A stretch of 64,000 bases of DNA from Candidatus Rokuibacteriota bacterium (GTDB lineage Bacteria; Methylomirabilota; Methylomirabilia; Rokubacteriales; CSP1-6), in contig QHSP01000015.1 of assembly GCA_003220495.1 (NCBI GenBank), forward strand, positions 62,001 to 126,000, in the 5' to 3' direction. The notes under the pieces are model-generated. The model was not told the DNA's origin. It worked only from the letters and a program-made list of their open reading frames with translations, and ran no database searches. Position numbers and translations under genes: made by a program. Of the stretch, positions 151-45,688 are shown piece after piece. Positions within the stretch are counted from its first letter, which is position 1. The number at the start of each line of letters is the position of its first letter.

Positions 151-1185
151 ATGGCGGGTGCGCTCACGTCCAAGCGGTACCGCGTCGACGATGTCGACGC
201 GGGCGAGTTCTGCTTCCAGCAAGGGTGGACCGACGGGTTGCCGGTGGTCCCTCCGACCGAGGATCGCGTGACCATGATGCTCGCGGCCGCGCGCCTCGAT
301 CCCAAGCAGGAGATCGCCTACATCACGAACCGGTCGGTGTCGGTCACCGCGGAGAAAGTCGCGATCAACGCGGTCATGGCGGGCTGCCGGCCCGAGTACA
401 TGGCGGTCGTCGTCGCGGCGGTTGCGGGCATCGGCGACCCCGCCTGGAGCTATCACGGCCCGGGAACCTCGACGGGCGGCGCCGCGGTCCTGGTGATCAT
501 CAACGGACCCATCACCCGAGAGCTCGACATCAACTCGGGCGACAACCTCTTCGGGCCGGGGTGGCGGGCCAATCTCACGATCGGGCGCGCGCTGCGCCTG
601 GTGATGCGCAACGTCTGCGGCTCGCTGCCCGGCTTGCTCGATCGCGGCACGCTCGGTCACCCGGGCAAGCTCTCGTACGTGATCGCGGAGAACGAGGCGG
701 AGAGCCCGTGGACGCCGCTCCACGTCGAGCGGGGCTTCCGGCCTGACCAGAGCACGGTGACGGTGATGGCGGCCGAGTCGCCCCATCAGTTCTACAACCA
801 GCTCTCGCCCGACGCCGAGGGCGTGCTGACGACGCTCGCCGATTCGATGAAGCATTCCGGCGGCGCCGGGCGGCAGCCGCAGTACGTCGTCACCTTGGCC
901 GGTGAGCACATGCGGACGATCGCCGGGAGCGGCTGGGGTAAGAAGGAGATCCGTCAGTTCCTGTTCGAGAACACGAAGAACACGATCGCGCATCTCAAGC
1001 GCACCAATCGCATCCCGGGAGCGATCCAGCCCGGCGACGACACGAAGCTCAGACCCATCGTCGCGGAGCCCGACGACATCCTCATCCTCGCCGCCGGCGG
1101 GCGCGCCGGCTCGTTCTCGTCGTTCATCCCGGGATGGGGCAGTGGCCGTTCATCCCTCGCCACGACCAAGGAGGTCAAGCGATGA
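151..1185 (+). CDS. Conserved protein of unknown function, partner of the UGSC selenoprotein
   Basis: 344 residues with no signal peptide and no clear membrane segment, so probably cytoplasmic. Near the N-terminus a motif GWTDGLPVVPPT (residues 25-36) follows Cys21, and a second cysteine lies in MAGCRPEYM (Cys79); I recall this type of protein accompanying UGSC-family proteins, but I cannot assign a reaction. GGAGG at 141-145 supports the ATG at 151. The stop TGA overlaps the start of the next gene as ATGA (1182-1185), so the two are translationally coupled and probably form one functional unit, perhaps two subunits of an enzyme. Alternative readings cannot be excluded. Confidence 0.75.
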   Translation: MAGALTSKRYRVDDVDAGEFCFQQGWTDGLPVVPPTEDRVTMMLAAARLDPKQEIAYITNRSVSVTAEKVAINAVMAGCRPEYMAVVVAAVAGIGDPAWSYHGPGTSTGGAAVLVIINGPITRELDINSGDNLFGPGWRANLTIGRALRLVMRNVCGSLPGLLDRGTLGHPGKLSYVIAENEAESPWTPLHVERGFRPDQSTVTVMAAESPHQFYNQLSPDAEGVLTTLADSMKHSGGAGRQPQYVVTLAGEHMRTIAGSGWGKKEIRQFLFENTKNTIAHLKRTNRIPGAIQPGDDTKLRPIVAEPDDILILAAGGRAGSFSSFIPGWGSGRSSLATTKEVKR

Positions 1186-1712
1186 TCGAACTTCTGGATC
1201 CTACCGTCGACGCGGCGAAACAGCCGATCGCCTACGTGGACCGGCCCGGTTCGCTGCAAGGCAAGCGGATCGGCCTGATCGAGAACACGAAGTACAACTC
1301 CGACAAGCTCCTGCTGCGAATCGGCGAGATCTTGAAGTCGGAGTACGGCGCCAGCGAGACGCGCATGTTCCGCAAGCACAACGCGTCGGTCCCGGCGCAC
1401 GAGGAGATCATCCAGGAGGTGCGCAAGACCTGCGACGTCATCGTCGCCGGCGTCGGAGACTGAGGGTCCTGCTCGTCGGGCAGTGTGCTCGACGGAATCG
1501 TGCTGGAGAAGAACGCGGTGCCGGCGGCCTCGATCGTCACGGACGTCTTCGAGAAGACCGCTCGCGCGATGGCTGAGCAATGGGGCGTACCGACCTACAA
1601 GTTCCTGATGATGCCGCACCCGATCGCAAACCTCACCGAGGCGGAGCTCGACAGCCGCGCGCGGGAGATCGCGCCCGAGGTCGTCAAGCTCTTGCTGAAG
1701 GGCCAGGACTAG
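1182..1712 (+). CDS. UGSC-family selenoprotein (TGA at 1461-1463 read as selenocysteine)
   Basis: The frame starting at ATG 1182 meets TGA at 1461 but continues open to TAG 1710. Read through, it gives 176 residues with Sec94 in the motif Sec-Gly-Ser-Cys (94-97), the signature after which UGSC-family (seleno)proteins are named. Both halves are protein-like: the N-terminal half has a glycine-rich strand-turn segment (QGKRIGLIENTKYNS) and ends in DVIVAGVGD just before Sec; the C-terminal half contains VPAASIVTDVFEK and MMPHPIANL. A SECIS-like hairpin follows the TGA (1474-1494). The Sec/Cys pair resembles a redox centre, but the substrate is unknown. The start overlaps the previous stop (ATGA). 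Selenocysteine use is supported by selD at 15510. An automated call would split this into a truncated protein and a fragment. Confidence 0.85.
1474..1494 (+). promoter_or_regulatory. Putative bacterial SECIS hairpin of the UGSC gene
   Basis: CGTCGGGCA (1474-1482) pairs with TGCTCGACG (1486-1494) through nine base pairs, including one G-U, leaving a GTG apical loop at 1483-1485. The loop lies 20-22 nt after the TGA at 1461-1463, within the window in which SelB-binding hairpins are found in bacterial selenoprotein mRNAs. The structure is read by eye, not folded. Confidence 0.6.
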
Positions 1713-14596: not shown

Positions 14597-15505
14597 ATGG
14601 ACCTGCGCCGCCTCGAGATCTTCGCGAAGGTGGCCGAGCTCGGGAGCTTTTCGCGCGCCGCCGAGGCGCTGTTCCTGACCCAGCCCACGATCTCCGAGCA
14701 CATCCGCGCTCTCGAGGACGAGCTCGGCGTCCAGCTTCTCGACCGTCTCGGGCGCGGCGCGACGCCGACCCGAGCCGGCGAGTTGATGCTCGGATACGCC
14801 CGCCGCATGCTCGCCCTCTCGCGCGAAGCGCAGCAGGCGCTCGACCAGTTCCAGGGACGGCTGAGCGGCCAGCTCGTCGTCGGCGGCTCGACCATCCCGG
14901 GAGAGTATCTGCTGCCCTCCCTCATCGGACAGTTCAAGGCGAAGTACCCGGACATCTCGATCTCGCTGCTGATCGGTGGAAGCCGCCAGGTCAGCACGTG
15001 GGTCGACGACGGTCGGGCTGAGGTTGGCGTCGTCGGCGCCCGTCCCAGCCCGCGGACTCTCGTCTCCCGCGAGCTGATGCCCGACGAGCTCGTCGTCGTC
15101 CTTCCGGCCGAGCACCCCTGGGCCGGGCGCAAGAGCGTCACGCTCGCCGACTTGAAGCGTGAGCCCCTGATCGTACGCGAGCAAGGATCGGGCTCTCGCG
15201 AGGCGCTCGAGCACGCGCTCGGCGAGGCGAATGTCGATCTGACGGCCTTGCGCGTCGTGGGCGAGATGGGCTCGACGCAGGCGATCAAGCAAGCGGTCCG
15301 CTCCGGGGTCGGCATCTCGATCATCTCGAAGCGAGCGGTCGACGACGAATGCAAGGCCGCTCTGCTCTCGTGCGTGAAGCTCAAGGACTTGCGGGTCTCG
15401 CGGTTTTTCTATCTGGTGACCCATCGCGATCGCAGCCGCTCGCCGTTGGCGCAGGCGTTCGTCGATTTCGTGGAATCCCAGCTCCCGGCGCGCGCGTCCC
15501 AATAA
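14597..15505 (+). CDS. LysR-type regulator next to selD (probable selenium-metabolism regulator)
   Basis: 302 residues: winged helix-turn-helix at 1-60 (MDLRRLEIFAKVAELGSFSR, LTQPTISEHIRALEDEL) and a periplasmic-binding-like effector domain from about 90 (LVVGGSTIPGEYLLP). LysR proteins of this type occur next to selD in other selenocysteine-using bacteria and are annotated as selenium-metabolism-associated. selD begins 4 bp after its stop, so both are on one transcript. The effector is unknown. Confidence 0.85.
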   Translation: MDLRRLEIFAKVAELGSFSRAAEALFLTQPTISEHIRALEDELGVQLLDRLGRGATPTRAGELMLGYARRMLALSREAQQALDQFQGRLSGQLVVGGSTIPGEYLLPSLIGQFKAKYPDISISLLIGGSRQVSTWVDDGRAEVGVVGARPSPRTLVSRELMPDELVVVLPAEHPWAGRKSVTLADLKREPLIVREQGSGSREALEHALGEANVDLTALRVVGEMGSTQAIKQAVRSGVGISIISKRAVDDECKAALLSCVKLKDLRVSRFFYLVTHRDRSRSPLAQAFVDFVESQLPARASQ

Positions 15506-15509
15506 GCCT

Positions 15510-16577
15510 ATGGTCGAGCACACCCACACCGAGGTGCGCCTCACCTCATACGCCTCCTGCGCCGGCTGAGCGTCCAAAATGGCTCCTGGAGATCTCCAGG
15601 AGGTGCTGGCGGTCCTGAGGCCCGGCGGGACGCCGCCGCCCGCGGATCTGCTCGTCGGGCTCGGCGCGGCGGACGACGCGGCGGTCTATCGCGTGGCGCC
15701 CGACCTCGCGATCGTCGAGACCGTCGACTTCTTTCCGCCGGTCGTCGACGACCCGTGGACGTGGGGCGCCGTCGCGGCGGTGAACGCGATGTCCGATGTC
15801 TACGCGATGGGCGGCGAGGTGATGTTCGCGCTCGCGGTCGCAGGCTTCCCGCGCGAGATGGCGAAGGAAATCATCTCGGAGGTCTTCCGCGGCGGCCGCG
15901 ACAAGGTCGCCGAGGCGGGCGGCGTGATCGCGGGCGGGCACACCGTCGTCGACGCCGAGCCGAAGTACGGGCTCTGCGTGACGGGCCGCGTTCACCCCGA
16001 CCGGATCCTGGTCAAGGGCGGCCTGCGCCCCGGCGACCGCGTGTTCCTCACCAAGCCTCTCGGTACCGGAGTCATCACGACGGCGGCCAAGAACGGCGTC
16101 GCGCGCGCCGAATGGCTCGCGGCCGCGGTCGCCAGCATGCTGCGGCTCAATCGCGTCGCCGCCGCGGTCGCGCGTGAGAGCGGGGCCAAGGGCGCCACCG
16201 ACATCACCGGATTCGGCTTCCTCGGCCATGCCGGGGAGATGGTGAAAGCCTCGAACGCGGGCCTCGCGATCGACACGGTGCGCCTCCCGGTCCTCCCGGG
16301 CACGCGCGAGCTCGCCGAGGCGGGCCAGTTCAGCGGTGGGATGAAGCGGAACCGGCGCTACGTCGATACGGCGTTCGGGACCGCGCTGACGATCGCGCCG
16401 TCGGTGCCCGGGTACCTCGCCTCGTTGCTCACCGAGTCGGAGACCTCGGGCGGGCTCCTCTTCTCGGTCGCCGCCGACCGCGCCGGGTCAGTCCTCGACG
16501 CCTTCAAGCGGCGCGGCGAAGAGTGCTGGGAGATCGGCGTGGTGCTGCCCGAGCCGGTGATCCGCATCTCCGCGTAG
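15510..16577 (+). CDS. selD: Selenide, water dikinase; itself a selenoprotein (TGA 15567-15569 as Sec20)
   Basis: SelD makes selenophosphate from selenide and ATP, the selenium donor for Sec-tRNA. The obvious frame begins at ATG 15579, but that lacks the catalytic N-terminus. Extending upstream in frame through TGA 15567-15569 to ATG 15510 restores it: RLTSYASCAG, then Sec20, then ASK. This aligns without gaps to the E. coli segment around Cys17, Sec taking the place of catalytic Cys17; the second Cys of E. coli is Ser here and the catalytic Lys is kept. The core carries LLVGLGAADDAAVY, TVDFFPPVVDDPW, NAMSDVYAMGG, AGGHTVVDAEP and ATDITGFGFLGH. Length is 355 residues, close to the family norm of about 347. 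A palindromic hairpin follows the TGA. Conventional annotation would truncate this protein. Confidence 0.9.
15583..15602 (+). promoter_or_regulatory. Putative bacterial SECIS hairpin of selD
   Basis: CTCCTGG (15583-15589) and CCAGGAG (15596-15602) form a perfect 7-bp stem around the six-base loop AGATCT. The loop begins 21 nt after the Sec TGA, in the expected window for a SelB-bound hairpin. The whole 20-base segment is a perfect palindrome and also encodes residues of the protein. Confidence 0.6.
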
Positions 16578-23447: not shown

Positions 23448-26400
23448 GCTTCCTGTCCCCGCTCGCGCTGTCGCTCTTCGCGCTGTCGGTGCCGCTGGTG
23501 CTGCTCTACTTCCTCAAGGTCCGCCGCCGCGAGCGGACCGTGTCGAGCCTGCTCCTGTGGAGCACCGCGCTGCGCGACCGCGAGGCGTCGACGTTCTTCC
23601 AGCGCCTGCACCGCGACCCGTTGCTCCTGCTCCAGCTCCTGGCGCTGCTCGCGCTGGCCCTGGCGCTGGCCCGTCCCGTCGCGACCGTCATGGGGCAGGG
23701 CGCGCGCAAGGTGGTGGTCGTGCTCGACACCTCGGCTTCGATGAAGGCGCAGGACGTGTCGCCCTCGCGGTTCGAGGTGGCCCGGGCCGGCGCGCTCTCG
23801 CTCGTGCGCGGTCTCGGCGAGGGCGCGGAAGTGATGGTGATCGAGGCCGGCGTCCAGCCGAAGGTGACGGCGGCGCTGGCGCGCGACCGCGAGCGGGCGC
23901 TCGGCGCCATCCGGTCGGCCCAGGCCCGCGATCTCCCGACCCGGCTGGTCGAGGCGGTGCGGACGGCGCGGGCCCTCGTCGCCGTCGATCCGCGGGCCGA
24001 GATCCACGTCTTCACCGACGGCGCGTTTACCTTGCCCCAGGGCGAGGACACGACCGACGCGCGCGTTCGGTGGGTCGGTGTCGGACGGCAGGGCAACAAC
24101 GTCGCGATCACCAGCCTCTCGATCCGGAAGAACTACTACGGCGCCTTCGACTACCAGGCGTTCGTCTCGCTCGTGAACTACTCCAGCGACGCGCAGACGT
24201 TCGCGTTCCGGCTCGAGCTCGACGGCAAGTCGATCGCCGAAAAAGAGGTGACGCTCGAGCCCAACGTCCGCCGATCGGTGGTGCTGCCGTTCAGCCACGG
24301 CGGCAGCGGCACGGTGACGGCGCGCATCCGTGTCAACGACGACCTCGACGTCGACAACGTCGCGTACGCGGTCCTGCCGCCGCCGCGAAAGATCGCCGTC
24401 CTCCTGGTGAGCCCGGGCAATCTCTTCCTCGAGAAAGTTCTGCGGACTGACCCGCAGGTCGCCCTCGAGGTCCGCACGCCCGACCAGTACCAGGGGGGAA
24501 TGGGCGAGGCTGACGTCGTCGTCCTCGACTCGGTGACGCCCCCGCGAGCGGGCCCGGGACGGTTCGTGTTCGTCAACGCCGTGCCGCCGGACGTGCCCCT
24601 GGAGGTCCTCGGCCGGATCGAACGCCCGACGATCATGGACTGGGACCGCGCACACCCGGTCATGCGTCACGTCGAGTTCGCGAAGGTGACGATCGAGGAC
24701 GCGATGCGCATCCGGCCGCTGGCCGCGGGGCGTCCCGTCGTCGAGGCGGTGGGCGGGCCGCTCATCTACGCCCTCGAGGAGCCCGACCGGAAGGCGCTCT
24801 TCGTGGGATTCGATCTGTTCAAGACCGACTTCCCGCTGCGGATCGCGTTCCCGCTGGTCCTCTCGAACACGCTCCGGTGGCTCCACCCGGCAGGGCTCGA
24901 CCAGTCGAGCTTCCAGTTCGCGACGGGCCAGCCGATCCTCCTGCCGGCGCCTCACGGGGTCAGCACCGTCACGGTCACCACGCCCAGCGGTCGGACCGTC
25001 CAGGGCCGCGTCACGCGCGGCGCGATCAGCTTCACGGAGACCGACGAAGCGGGCATCTACACTCTGGCGACGGCGCGGGGCGAGACCCGGGTGGCCGTCA
25101 ACTTGATGAGCGCCGAGGAGTCGAACCTGGCGCCGCACCCGCTGCCGACGCCGACCGGCCACGGTCCCGCCGCGCCGCCGGTCCCGGTGCAGCGGGAGCT
25201 CTGGCCCCTCTTCGTGATGCTGGCGGTGATCCTGCTCGCGGGTGAGGGATTGCTCTACTGGCGGCGCCAGAGCGCCGGCCGGCTGCGCCTGCCGTCGGGC
25301 CCAGGGGACCGGTGGGCGCTGGCGCTCCGGAGTGCGCTCGTGATCGTGCTCTGCCTCACGCTGCTGCGACCGACCTTGCCGAGATGGGTCGACCGGATGA
25401 ACGTGGTGTTCTTGCTCGACCTGTCGGACAGCGTGAGCCTTGCCTCTCGCGAGCGCGCGTACCGGTTCGTCGCCGAAGCCGCCAAGTCGATGAAGAGCGG
25501 CGACCGCAACAGCGTGATCGCGTTCGGTGAACAGGCGGTCGTCGACCAGCCGCTCGCCGCGCGTCCCACTGTCGAGCGTCCAAAGGCCCAGATCGACGGC
25601 CACGGCACGAACATCTTCCAGGCGATCCAGCTGGCGCTGGCGATGCTGCCGCCCGGGCAGGCCAATCGCATCGTCATGCTGACGGATGGACGCCAGAACG
25701 CCGGCAACGCGCTGGCCGGGGCCCAGGCCGCGAAGGACGCCGCGTCCGACATCTACTACGTCGCGGCGCCGCTGACCTTCACGCAGGAAGTCGTCGCCGA
25801 GGCGCTCGTGCTCCCGCACGAGGTCAAGTTCGGCGAGCCGTTCCAGGCGAAGGTCGTCGTGTGGAGCCACCGGGACACCGAGGGGCGGCTCTCGCTCTTC
25901 CGGAACAACGAGTTCCTCGGCTCGCAGGTGGTGCGCCTGAGCGCCGGCAAGAACGTGTTCAGCTACCGGCAGTCGCTCGACTCGAGCGGGATCCACGTCT
26001 ATCAGGCCGCGATGGAGGTCGACGGCGACACGATCGAGGAGAACAATCGGGCCGTCGGCGCCGTCGTGGTTCGCGGCCGGCCGCAGGTGCTGCTCGCCGA
26101 TCGCGACCGAAGTCACGCGCAATCTCTGGCCGGCGCGCTCCGCTCGCAGAACATCGACGTGACCATCGTGGAGCCGCCGCAGATCCCGACCGACCTGGCC
26201 GGGCTGCAGAAGTACGACGGTGTCGTGCTCTCGAACGTCTCGTCGCTCAAGCTGACGCGGCCGCAGATGGGCTACATCCGCGACTACGTCCGCGACTACG
26301 GCGGCGGGCTCGTCATGATCGGCGGCGAAGAGAGCTTCGGGCTCGGCGGGTACTACCGCACCCCGATCGAGGAAGCGCTGCCGGTCACGATGGAGGTCAA

Positions 26401-27817
26401 GCAGAAGGTCGAGATTCCGAGCCTCGCGGTCGTGCTCTCGATCGACCGGTCGGGCTCGATGGCGATGTCAACCGACGAGAAGGTGACCAAGCTCGATCTC
26501 GCCAAGGAGGCGTCCCATCTCGTGGTCGACTTGCTGGACGAGCGCAACGAAGTCGGCGTCATGAGCTGGGACACCGAGTTCATCTGGGACGCGCCCGTGC
26601 GCCCGGCCAAGGACAAGGCGGCGATCCATCACGCGATCGCGACGATCAAGGCCGGTGGCGGCACCGACGGCTATCCCGCGCTGAAGGAGTCGTACCAGGT
26701 GCTGTTCGAGCGACCCGCGCTGCTCAAGCACGTGATCTTCCTGTCGGACGGGCAGATGACGCGGGGCGACTTCCAGGGCCTGTTGCGGCGCATGTCCAAG
26801 GACAAGATCACGGTGTCGACGGTCGCGATCGGCAAGGACGCCGATGTCCAGCTGATGGTCGATGTCGCCAAGTGGGGCAAGGGGCGCTTCTACTACACCG
26901 AGGACTCGCAGACGATTCCGCGCATCTTCACGCTCGAGACGCAGCTGGCCTCCAAGGCCTCGCTCGTCGAGCAGCCGTTCAAGCCGCAGCTGACATCCCC
27001 AGGGCACGAGGCGATCCAGGAGATCGACTGGAAGAGCGTGCCGCCCCTCGGGGGCTACGTCGCGAGCACCTTGAAATCGACGGCCGACCTGGTCCTGATG
27101 AGCCACCAGGAAGACCCGGTGCTCGCCACCTGGCGCTACGGGCTCGGCCGCTCGGTCGCGTTCACCTCGGACGCCAAGGCGAAGTGGGCCGTACTCTGGC
27201 TCCGGTGGCGCGAGTTCAACAAGTTCTGGTCGCAGCTGATCCGCTGGACCCTGCGAAGCGGGACCCGGAGCGACACGGTCGCCATCGTGGACCGACGAGA
27301 GAACACGGGCGAGATCTTCGTCGACGCGGTCGACCCGAAGGGTGAGTTCATCAACTTCCTCGACTCTCAGGTCGCCGTGGTCGCGCCGAACCGGGAGCGG
27401 TCGGTCATCGACCTCGAGCAGGTTGGTCCCGGCCGGTATCGTGGTCAGTTCCCCGCTGCGCAAGAGGGCGTCTATCTTGTCGGAATGGCGCAGCGCCGGA
27501 ACGATCGCGTGATCGGCTCGCAGCTGGCGGGTCTGGTGGTACCGTATGCTCAGGAGTTGCGTGATCTGGGCGTCGACGAGAGCCTCCTGCGCGAGCTCGC
27601 CGAGCTGACGGGCGGAGGGGCGCTCGCGAAGCCCCAGGACGCGTTCCTGACCGCGCGGAGACGGTCCCGCATCGGCGTGGAGATCTGGCCGTGGCTCGTC
27701 GGCCTGGTCGCGCTGTTGCTGGTCCCGGACATCGCGCTTCGGCGCATCGGTCCCGGGGCGTTCGAGCGGGTGATCATGCTGGTCCGTCGTGGTCTCCGAA
27801 AGAAGGAGGTTCCGTGA
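23444..27817 (+). CDS. Giant BatA/VWA fusion with three VWA domains and a GATase-like domain
   Basis: 1457 residues, fusing what are usually two or more separate genes. Order: BatA-type N-terminus with two membrane helices (about 5-24 and 58-80); VWA1 with metal-site start DTSAS at Asp95; beta-rich region; helix near 590-610 (LWPLFVMLAVILLAGEGL) and another near 630; VWA2 starting DLSDS near 658; a class-I glutamine-amidotransferase-like segment near 880-970 (GGGLVMIGGEESFGLGGY) without an obvious catalytic Cys; VWA3 with DRSGS near 1001 and LSDGQMTRGD; a beta-rich C-terminus and a final helix (IWPWLVGLVALLLVP). VWA2 departs from the DxSxS motif least at its aspartate and first serine. It is probably an inner-membrane scaffold with extracytoplasmic domains working with MoxR. 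No frameshift is seen. Confidence 0.88.
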   Translation: MSFLSPLALSLFALSVPLVLLYFLKVRRRERTVSSLLLWSTALRDREASTFFQRLHRDPLLLLQLLALLALALALARPVATVMGQGARKVVVVLDTSASMKAQDVSPSRFEVARAGALSLVRGLGEGAEVMVIEAGVQPKVTAALARDRERALGAIRSAQARDLPTRLVEAVRTARALVAVDPRAEIHVFTDGAFTLPQGEDTTDARVRWVGVGRQGNNVAITSLSIRKNYYGAFDYQAFVSLVNYSSDAQTFAFRLELDGKSIAEKEVTLEPNVRRSVVLPFSHGGSGTVTARIRVNDDLDVDNVAYAVLPPPRKIAVLLVSPGNLFLEKVLRTDPQVALEVRTPDQYQGGMGEADVVVLDSVTPPRAGPGRFVFVNAVPPDVPLEVLGRIERPTIMDWDRAHPVMRHVEFAKVTIEDAMRIRPLAAGRPVVEAVGGPLIYALEEPDRKALFVGFDLFKTDFPLRIAFPLVLSNTLRWLHPAGLDQSSFQFATGQPILLPAPHGVSTVTVTTPSGRTVQGRVTRGAISFTETDEAGIYTLATARGETRVAVNLMSAEESNLAPHPLPTPTGHGPAAPPVPVQRELWPLFVMLAVILLAGEGLLYWRRQSAGRLRLPSGPGDRWALALRSALVIVLCLTLLRPTLPRWVDRMNVVFLLDLSDSVSLASRERAYRFVAEAAKSMKSGDRNSVIAFGEQAVVDQPLAARPTVERPKAQIDGHGTNIFQAIQLALAMLPPGQANRIVMLTDGRQNAGNALAGAQAAKDAASDIYYVAAPLTFTQEVVAEALVLPHEVKFGEPFQAKVVVWSHRDTEGRLSLFRNNEFLGSQVVRLSAGKNVFSYRQSLDSSGIHVYQAAMEVDGDTIEENNRAVGAVVVRGRPQVLLADRDRSHAQSLAGALRSQNIDVTIVEPPQIPTDLAGLQKYDGVVLSNVSSLKLTRPQMGYIRDYVRDYGGGLVMIGGEESFGLGGYYRTPIEEALPVTMEVKQKVEIPSLAVVLSIDRSGSMAMSTDEKVTKLDLAKEASHLVVDLLDERNEVGVMSWDTEFIWDAPVRPAKDKAAIHHAIATIKAGGGTDGYPALKESYQVLFERPALLKHVIFLSDGQMTRGDFQGLLRRMSKDKITVSTVAIGKDADVQLMVDVAKWGKGRFYYTEDSQTIPRIFTLETQLASKASLVEQPFKPQLTSPGHEAIQEIDWKSVPPLGGYVASTLKSTADLVLMSHQEDPVLATWRYGLGRSVAFTSDAKAKWAVLWLRWREFNKFWSQLIRWTLRSGTRSDTVAIVDRRENTGEIFVDAVDPKGEFINFLDSQVAVVAPNRERSVIDLEQVGPGRYRGQFPAAQEGVYLVGMAQRRNDRVIGSQLAGLVVPYAQELRDLGVDESLLRELAELTGGGALAKPQDAFLTARRRSRIGVEIWPWLVGLVALLLVPDIALRRIGPGAFERVIMLVRRGLRKKEVP

Positions 27818-44929: not shown

Positions 44930-45688
44930 TCAGCCGCCCAGGTAGGCCTTGATCACGTCGGGATGCTCCTGCACCTCGCGCGCGGTGCCGAGGGCGATCG
45001 GTCGCCCGTAGTTCACCGCGAGCACCCGATCGGACACCGAGCTGACCAGGCTCATGTCGTGCTCGACCATCAGCACGGTGACGCCCAGGACGGTCCGGAT
45101 GTCCTGGATCCAGAACGCCATGTCCTCGGTCTCCTCGACGCTCAGGCCCGAGGACGGCTCGTCCAGGAGCAGGAGCCGCGGTCGCGTGCAGAGCGCCCGC
45201 GCCATCTCGACCACCTTGCGCACACCGTAGGCCAGGTTGACGACGAGGTTGTCACGGTGCGGCTGCAGGTCCAGGAAATCGATCACGCGCTCCACCGCCT
45301 CGCGGTGCTCGAGCTCGAGGGCGCGCACGCTCGGCAGGAACAGGAGCTCCTCCACGAAGCGCGAGCGCTTGTGGGCGTGGCGGCCGAGCAGGAGGTTCTG
45401 GAGCACGGTCGCGTGCTCGAACAGCTCGATGTTCTGGAACGTCCGCGCGATGCCGCGGCGGGCGACCTCGTGCGGCGGCACCCGTGTGATGTCCTCGCCG
45501 TCGAAGATCAGCCGGCCCGCGGTCGGCTCGTAGATTCGCGACACGAGATTGAAGATCGTCGTCTTGCCGGCGCCATTGGGGCCAATGATCGTGAAGACCT
45601 CGCCCGGCTCGATCTGGAAGCTCACGCCGTCGACGGCCCGCAGCCCGCCGAAGTCCATGACGAGGCCGTCCGCGGCGAAGAGGCTCAT
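44930..45688 (-). CDS. livG: Liv-type ABC transporter ATPase (LivG)
   Basis: 252 residues. Walker A is GPNGAGKTT, Walker B RLLLLDEPSSGL, and the His switch MVEHDMSLV; the signature is the LivG variant LAYGVRKVVEMARAL. It forms the ATPase heterodimer with LivF. ATG 45688 was selected because the family N-terminus (MSLFAADGLVMDFGG) begins there. It overlaps livM by 4 bases. Confidence 0.92.
   Translation of the reverse strand: MSLFAADGLVMDFGGLRAVDGVSFQIEPGEVFTIIGPNGAGKTTIFNLVSRIYEPTAGRLIFDGEDITRVPPHEVARRGIARTFQNIELFEHATVLQNLLLGRHAHKRSRFVEELLFLPSVRALELEHREAVERVIDFLDLQPHRDNLVVNLAYGVRKVVEMARALCTRPRLLLLDEPSSGLSVEETEDMAFWIQDIRTVLGVTVLMVEHDMSLVSSVSDRVLAVNYGRPIALGTAREVQEHPDVIKAYLGG

Follow-up and report, generated by a model that had tools for sequence, protein, structure and literature searches.

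The window analysed in this study, a stretch of 64,000 nucleotides, belongs to a 6-Mb, Rokubacteria-like genome of the phylum Methylomirabilota, and carries a gene for selenophosphate synthetase (selD) whose reading frame contains a TGA. The features of the window considered here are as follows.

1182 to 1712, forward strand: gene for a UGSC family protein, the second selenoprotein gene, with a TGA at 1461 (PF24696, NF041046)
14597 to 15505, forward strand: gene for a selenium metabolism-associated LysR-type regulator (NF040786)
15510 to 16577, forward strand: selD, selenophosphate synthetase of 355 residues with Sec20 (TGA) and a TAG stop at 16575 (TIGR00476; AIRS and AIRS_C domains; phylum-wide homologues with TGA at the same position)
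15558 to 15560, forward strand: TGC codon of Cys17, at Sec-3, giving a CxxU motif (Cys invariant in 55 distinct relatives)
15567 to 15569, forward strand: in-frame TGA, predicted to be read as Sec, at the position of E. coli Cys17 (PDB alignments; TGA in 55 of 55 distinct relatives)
15573 to 15575, forward strand: codon of Ser22, at the position of E. coli Cys19 (Ser in 54 and Ala in one of the 55 distinct relatives)
15583 to 15602, forward strand: predicted bacterial SECIS, an 8-bp stem (15583-15590 with 15595-15602) closed by the tetraloop GAUC at 15591-15594 (folding, rare codons, paired changes)

Translation of selD gave a frame that was open from ATG 15510 to 16577 apart from the TGA at residue 20. 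The extension of the gene through TGA 15567 up to ATG 15510, proposed from the sequence alone, was borne out, as the frame is intact and the TIGR00476 profile (343 bits; curated family cut-off, 125 bits) covered residues 10-324, a match that includes part of the protein upstream of the TGA. Both AIR synthase domains were found by domain search. In alignments with PDB structures, residue 20 fell on Cys17 of the E. coli enzyme, where the sequence-only reading had placed it, and on the Cys that corresponds to it in the structure from Aquifex aeolicus. Lys23 was aligned with E. coli Lys20, and Ser22 with E. coli Cys19, in agreement with the claim that the second Cys of the usual pair is replaced by Ser. 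The additional Cys claimed at Sec-3 is likewise present as Cys17 and did not vary among the relatives. The UxxK motif of the SelD N-terminal loop, given as a SelD motif in PMC13188914, occurs here as U20-A-S-K23.

The upstream gene matched the LysR-type regulator family NF040786 with 316.6 bits against a cut-off of 250, and ends 4 nt before the start of selD; the two genes are likely to form one transcription unit. The same LysR-type family adjoins selD on a Pusillibacter plasmid.

The TGA is followed by a hairpin whose loop, GAUC, begins 21 nt past the TGA. A perfect 7-bp hairpin had been claimed at this place; the hairpin itself was recovered and its stem proved to be 8 bp long. Its 20 nt read CTCCTGGAGATCTCCAGGAG, a perfect palindrome, and the predicted folding energy was -22 kcal/mol, with a modest single-sequence z of -1.89. 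Its apex, AGAUCU, resembles that of E. coli fdhF (AGGUCU). The bacterial SECIS model of PMC13188914 calls for a G among the first two bases of the loop and a distance of 16-37 nt from the UGA, and the loop and distance of the present hairpin agree with that model. No match to Rfam was found anywhere in the 64,000-nt window.

Several codons of the hairpin are rare in the genome (usage of GCT 7%, CCT 7%, GGA 10% and GAT 25%), and these are retained in most relatives. Two paired changes were seen in the stem: GCT/GAG to GGT/GAC, in which both halves of the stem alter the protein (Ala to Gly together with Glu to Asp), and CCT/CAG to CCC/CGG, in which only one half does so, replacing Gln by Arg. 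As these changes alter amino acids, selection on the protein alone would not pair them. Both sides of the stem were changed in 14 of 192 cells against a shuffled mean of 6.1, a value reached in none of 500 shuffles, in a set of 24 distinct sequences that holds few independent events. A control slid by -2 gave a covariation of 0.184 against 0.182, yet only 52% of its cells were paired compared with 82% for the hairpin. In one subclade (L097, L100, L102, L104, L105 and L108) the CAGUASK site is kept and the 8-bp stem is absent, with weak alternatives only. The hairpin, a candidate SECIS, is conserved and appears partly covarying. Its perfectly palindromic sequence could in principle also mark a site that acts in DNA; against this, some relatives have a G-U closing pair or an asymmetric loop.

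The genome holds the complete set of SelA, SelB and tRNA-Sec. On contig C152, selA was identified with 591 bits and selB with 356.6 bits, above the cut-off, together with a tRNA-Sec carrying a UCA anticodon. A gene for the alpha subunit of formate dehydrogenase with one in-frame TGA is present on contig C38 of the same genome (G000, 24532-27672; L126, L125), and is probably another selenoprotein gene. A scan of the window by codon usage, looking for TGA between coding stretches, yielded one more convincing read-through, at position 1461 in the UGSC family gene. The Sec of that protein falls within the UGSC motif itself, and a standard ORF caller would split the gene. An apparent read-through at 44932 on the reverse strand was rejected, since it was judged, from the translation alone, to represent two adjacent ABC transporter genes. 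For this phylum, PMC13188914 reports one Methylomirabilota genome in which 63 selenoprotein genes were predicted.

The origin of the TGA was assessed by comparison with relatives. Cys occupies this site in 81% of bacterial SelD (PMC4561486), and the TGA could in principle be a change from TGC or TGT, by sequencing error or by a disabling mutation of a Cys-type gene. Against this, the codon at the Sec20 site is TGA in each of the 55 distinct relatives of this type, which come from independently assembled genomes, and it lies in the context RLT-Y-CAG-U-ASK with synonymous drift on either side; an invariant TGA between flanks of this kind speaks against both a sequencing error and a decayed gene. 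All relatives of the GAGUACK type also have TGA, and the genome possesses the Sec machinery, which leaves error or mutation an exceedingly improbable source of the codon. In the phylum as a whole SelD was found in 93 of 95 genomes, and essentially all copies that cover the Sec site hold one TGA, the exceptions being fused or second SelD copies with Cys or no stop. One genome with a Sec-type SelD also has a Cys-type SelD (GLGCACK; L080 at G006:C155) in a long open frame that is probably a fusion. The in-frame TGA in selD at the catalytic site is accordingly confirmed as conserved across the whole phylum Methylomirabilota.

The longest standard ORF opens at ATG 15579, and a start there would leave the preceding sequence untranslated and give a truncated SelD lacking the catalytic loop. 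The codons before the TGA, on the other hand, are conserved at the protein level with synonymous drift. Residues R, L, T, Y, C, A and G upstream of the TGA are invariant among the 55 distinct sequences, and over codons -9 to -1 the minor alleles numbered 94 at third positions against 17 at second positions, an excess from which it follows that this part of the frame is translated. A start of homologues at the 15579 ATG, named beforehand as counting against the extension, was not borne out: codon 24, which this ATG represents, reads CTG in 4 of 55 relatives and specifies Ile, Leu or Val in the other clades, so that it is not conserved as Met. SelD homologues, moreover, possess this N-terminus, and we consider the late start as hard to credit as an error. 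A reading of the TGA as an amino acid other than Sec, by a change of the code or by near-cognate read-through, has a precedent in insect SPS1 genes, for which UGA read-through without Sec is described in part of PMC4561486. SelA, SelB and tRNA-Sec are nevertheless all present, the TGA lies at the Sec/Cys site of the family with a candidate SECIS downstream, and the one other convincing TGA read-through in the window is itself in a known selenoprotein family; such a reading is very improbable, if slightly less so than the previous two.

The best explanation, to which we assign a probability of about 0.96, is that this SelD is an ordinary bacterial selenophosphate synthetase of the Sec type, with UGA decoded via SelB and the hairpin. 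There is strong support for the proposal that SelD is here a selenoprotein, with Sec at the catalytic position and a SECIS-like hairpin after it. Guided by the hairpin at 15583-15602, SelB would supply the UGA at 15567 with Sec-tRNA(Sec). Once inserted, Sec20 would sit in the flexible N-terminal loop beside Lys23, the two residues corresponding to Cys17 and Lys20 of E. coli, and would probably hold selenium during ATP-dependent selenophosphate formation. SelA would then use the selenophosphate to make Sec-tRNA. As SelD needs Sec and Sec needs selenophosphate, the enzyme would depend on its own product. Annotation by the standard rules from ATG 15579 would lose the catalytic loop, and the present analysis adds Sec-SelD genes, well supported and spread across the phylum, from bacteria of soil and groundwater that are uncultured.

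Within the phylum, two arrangements of the active site were distinguished. CAGUASK, with Cys at Sec-3, occurs in two families, in which the CxxU form is fixed, and in one divergent SelD of a third; HGAGUACK, with Cys at Sec+2, occurs in most other families. The HGAGUACK type shares with the present SelD the phylum, the Sec site and a hairpin after the TGA, but shows the opposite distribution of Cys, with none at Sec-3, and the two Cys were never found together in the phylum sequences examined. In the HGAGUACK type (L076-L088 and L090, of families other than f1 and f5) the predicted hairpin has a three-base loop starting in G and lies about 33 nt after the TGA, approximately 12 nt further downstream than that of the CAGUASK type, which suggests that the position of the SECIS varies between families of one phylum. 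In a tree of SelD built without the N-terminus, a single clade (100/100) united the CxxU sequences from both main families; L089 and the Bacillota rows lay on long branches in the same tree, and the number of CxxU origins is therefore uncertain (2-3 changes). Given its fixation in two families and the contrast with the UxC of most others, CxxU is a lineage feature that is not unique to this selD. It is possible, but on balance unlikely, that the partner Cys of SelD shifted from Sec+2 to Sec-3 in these two Rokubacteria-type families to give a CxxU redox motif forming a Cys17-Sec20 selenenylsulfide, perhaps with other handling or protection of selenium, and with a spacing between UGA and SECIS unlike that of the sister families. 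Related families that carry Cys at Sec+2 or at Sec-3 provide natural variants with which the role of a second thiol, if any, may be probed.

That SelD can itself be a selenoprotein has long been known. It is the second most widespread prokaryotic selenoprotein (PMC13188914), and Sec is found in 19% of prokaryotic SelD, always at this site (PMC4561486); in E. coli, selenide is bound by Cys17, and replacing this residue by Ser abolishes activity (PMC3956282). The present protein shares its fold family (TIGR00476), its Sec site and, with its candidate hairpin, a downstream SECIS with the Sec forms of Aquifex aeolicus, the Pasteurellales and SEPHS2. It differs in the residues around Sec, with Cys at Sec-3 and Ser at Sec+2 where E. 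coli has Gly and Cys, and where Aquifex and clostridia have Ala at +2. The survey of the motif outside the phylum covered one viral contig and 13 loci from plasmids or phage collections. A search of the viral contig collection for distant SelD gave a single locus. The second Cys is absent, as here, from the Aquifex SelD in the PDB (GCAAK), and also from the SelD of Pusillibacter (AAGUAAK) and Terrisporobacter (TAGUAAK). Enterococcus has CGGCNAK. A plasmid of Ligilactobacillus salivarius encodes a SelD with CGGUNSK, combining Cys at Sec-3 with Ser at Sec+2 as in the present protein; it is approximately 41% identical, lacks the RLTSYA stretch, and is adjoined by proline reductase and YedE genes. 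The IMG/VR contig L111 (IMGVR_UViG_3300035670_000038) encodes a 47% identical SelD whose active site reads CAGCASK, with Cys in place of Sec. The claim that the redox arrangement differs from known SelD forms was therefore largely not upheld, since the second Cys is commonly absent elsewhere and both CxxU-x-S-K and its Cys version CAGCASK occur in these loci. By its sequence distribution, Cys at Sec-3 without Cys at Sec+2 is a recurring variant and no departure from known SelD, and this minor relocation of Cys is the sole unusual feature of an otherwise normal Sec-type enzyme.
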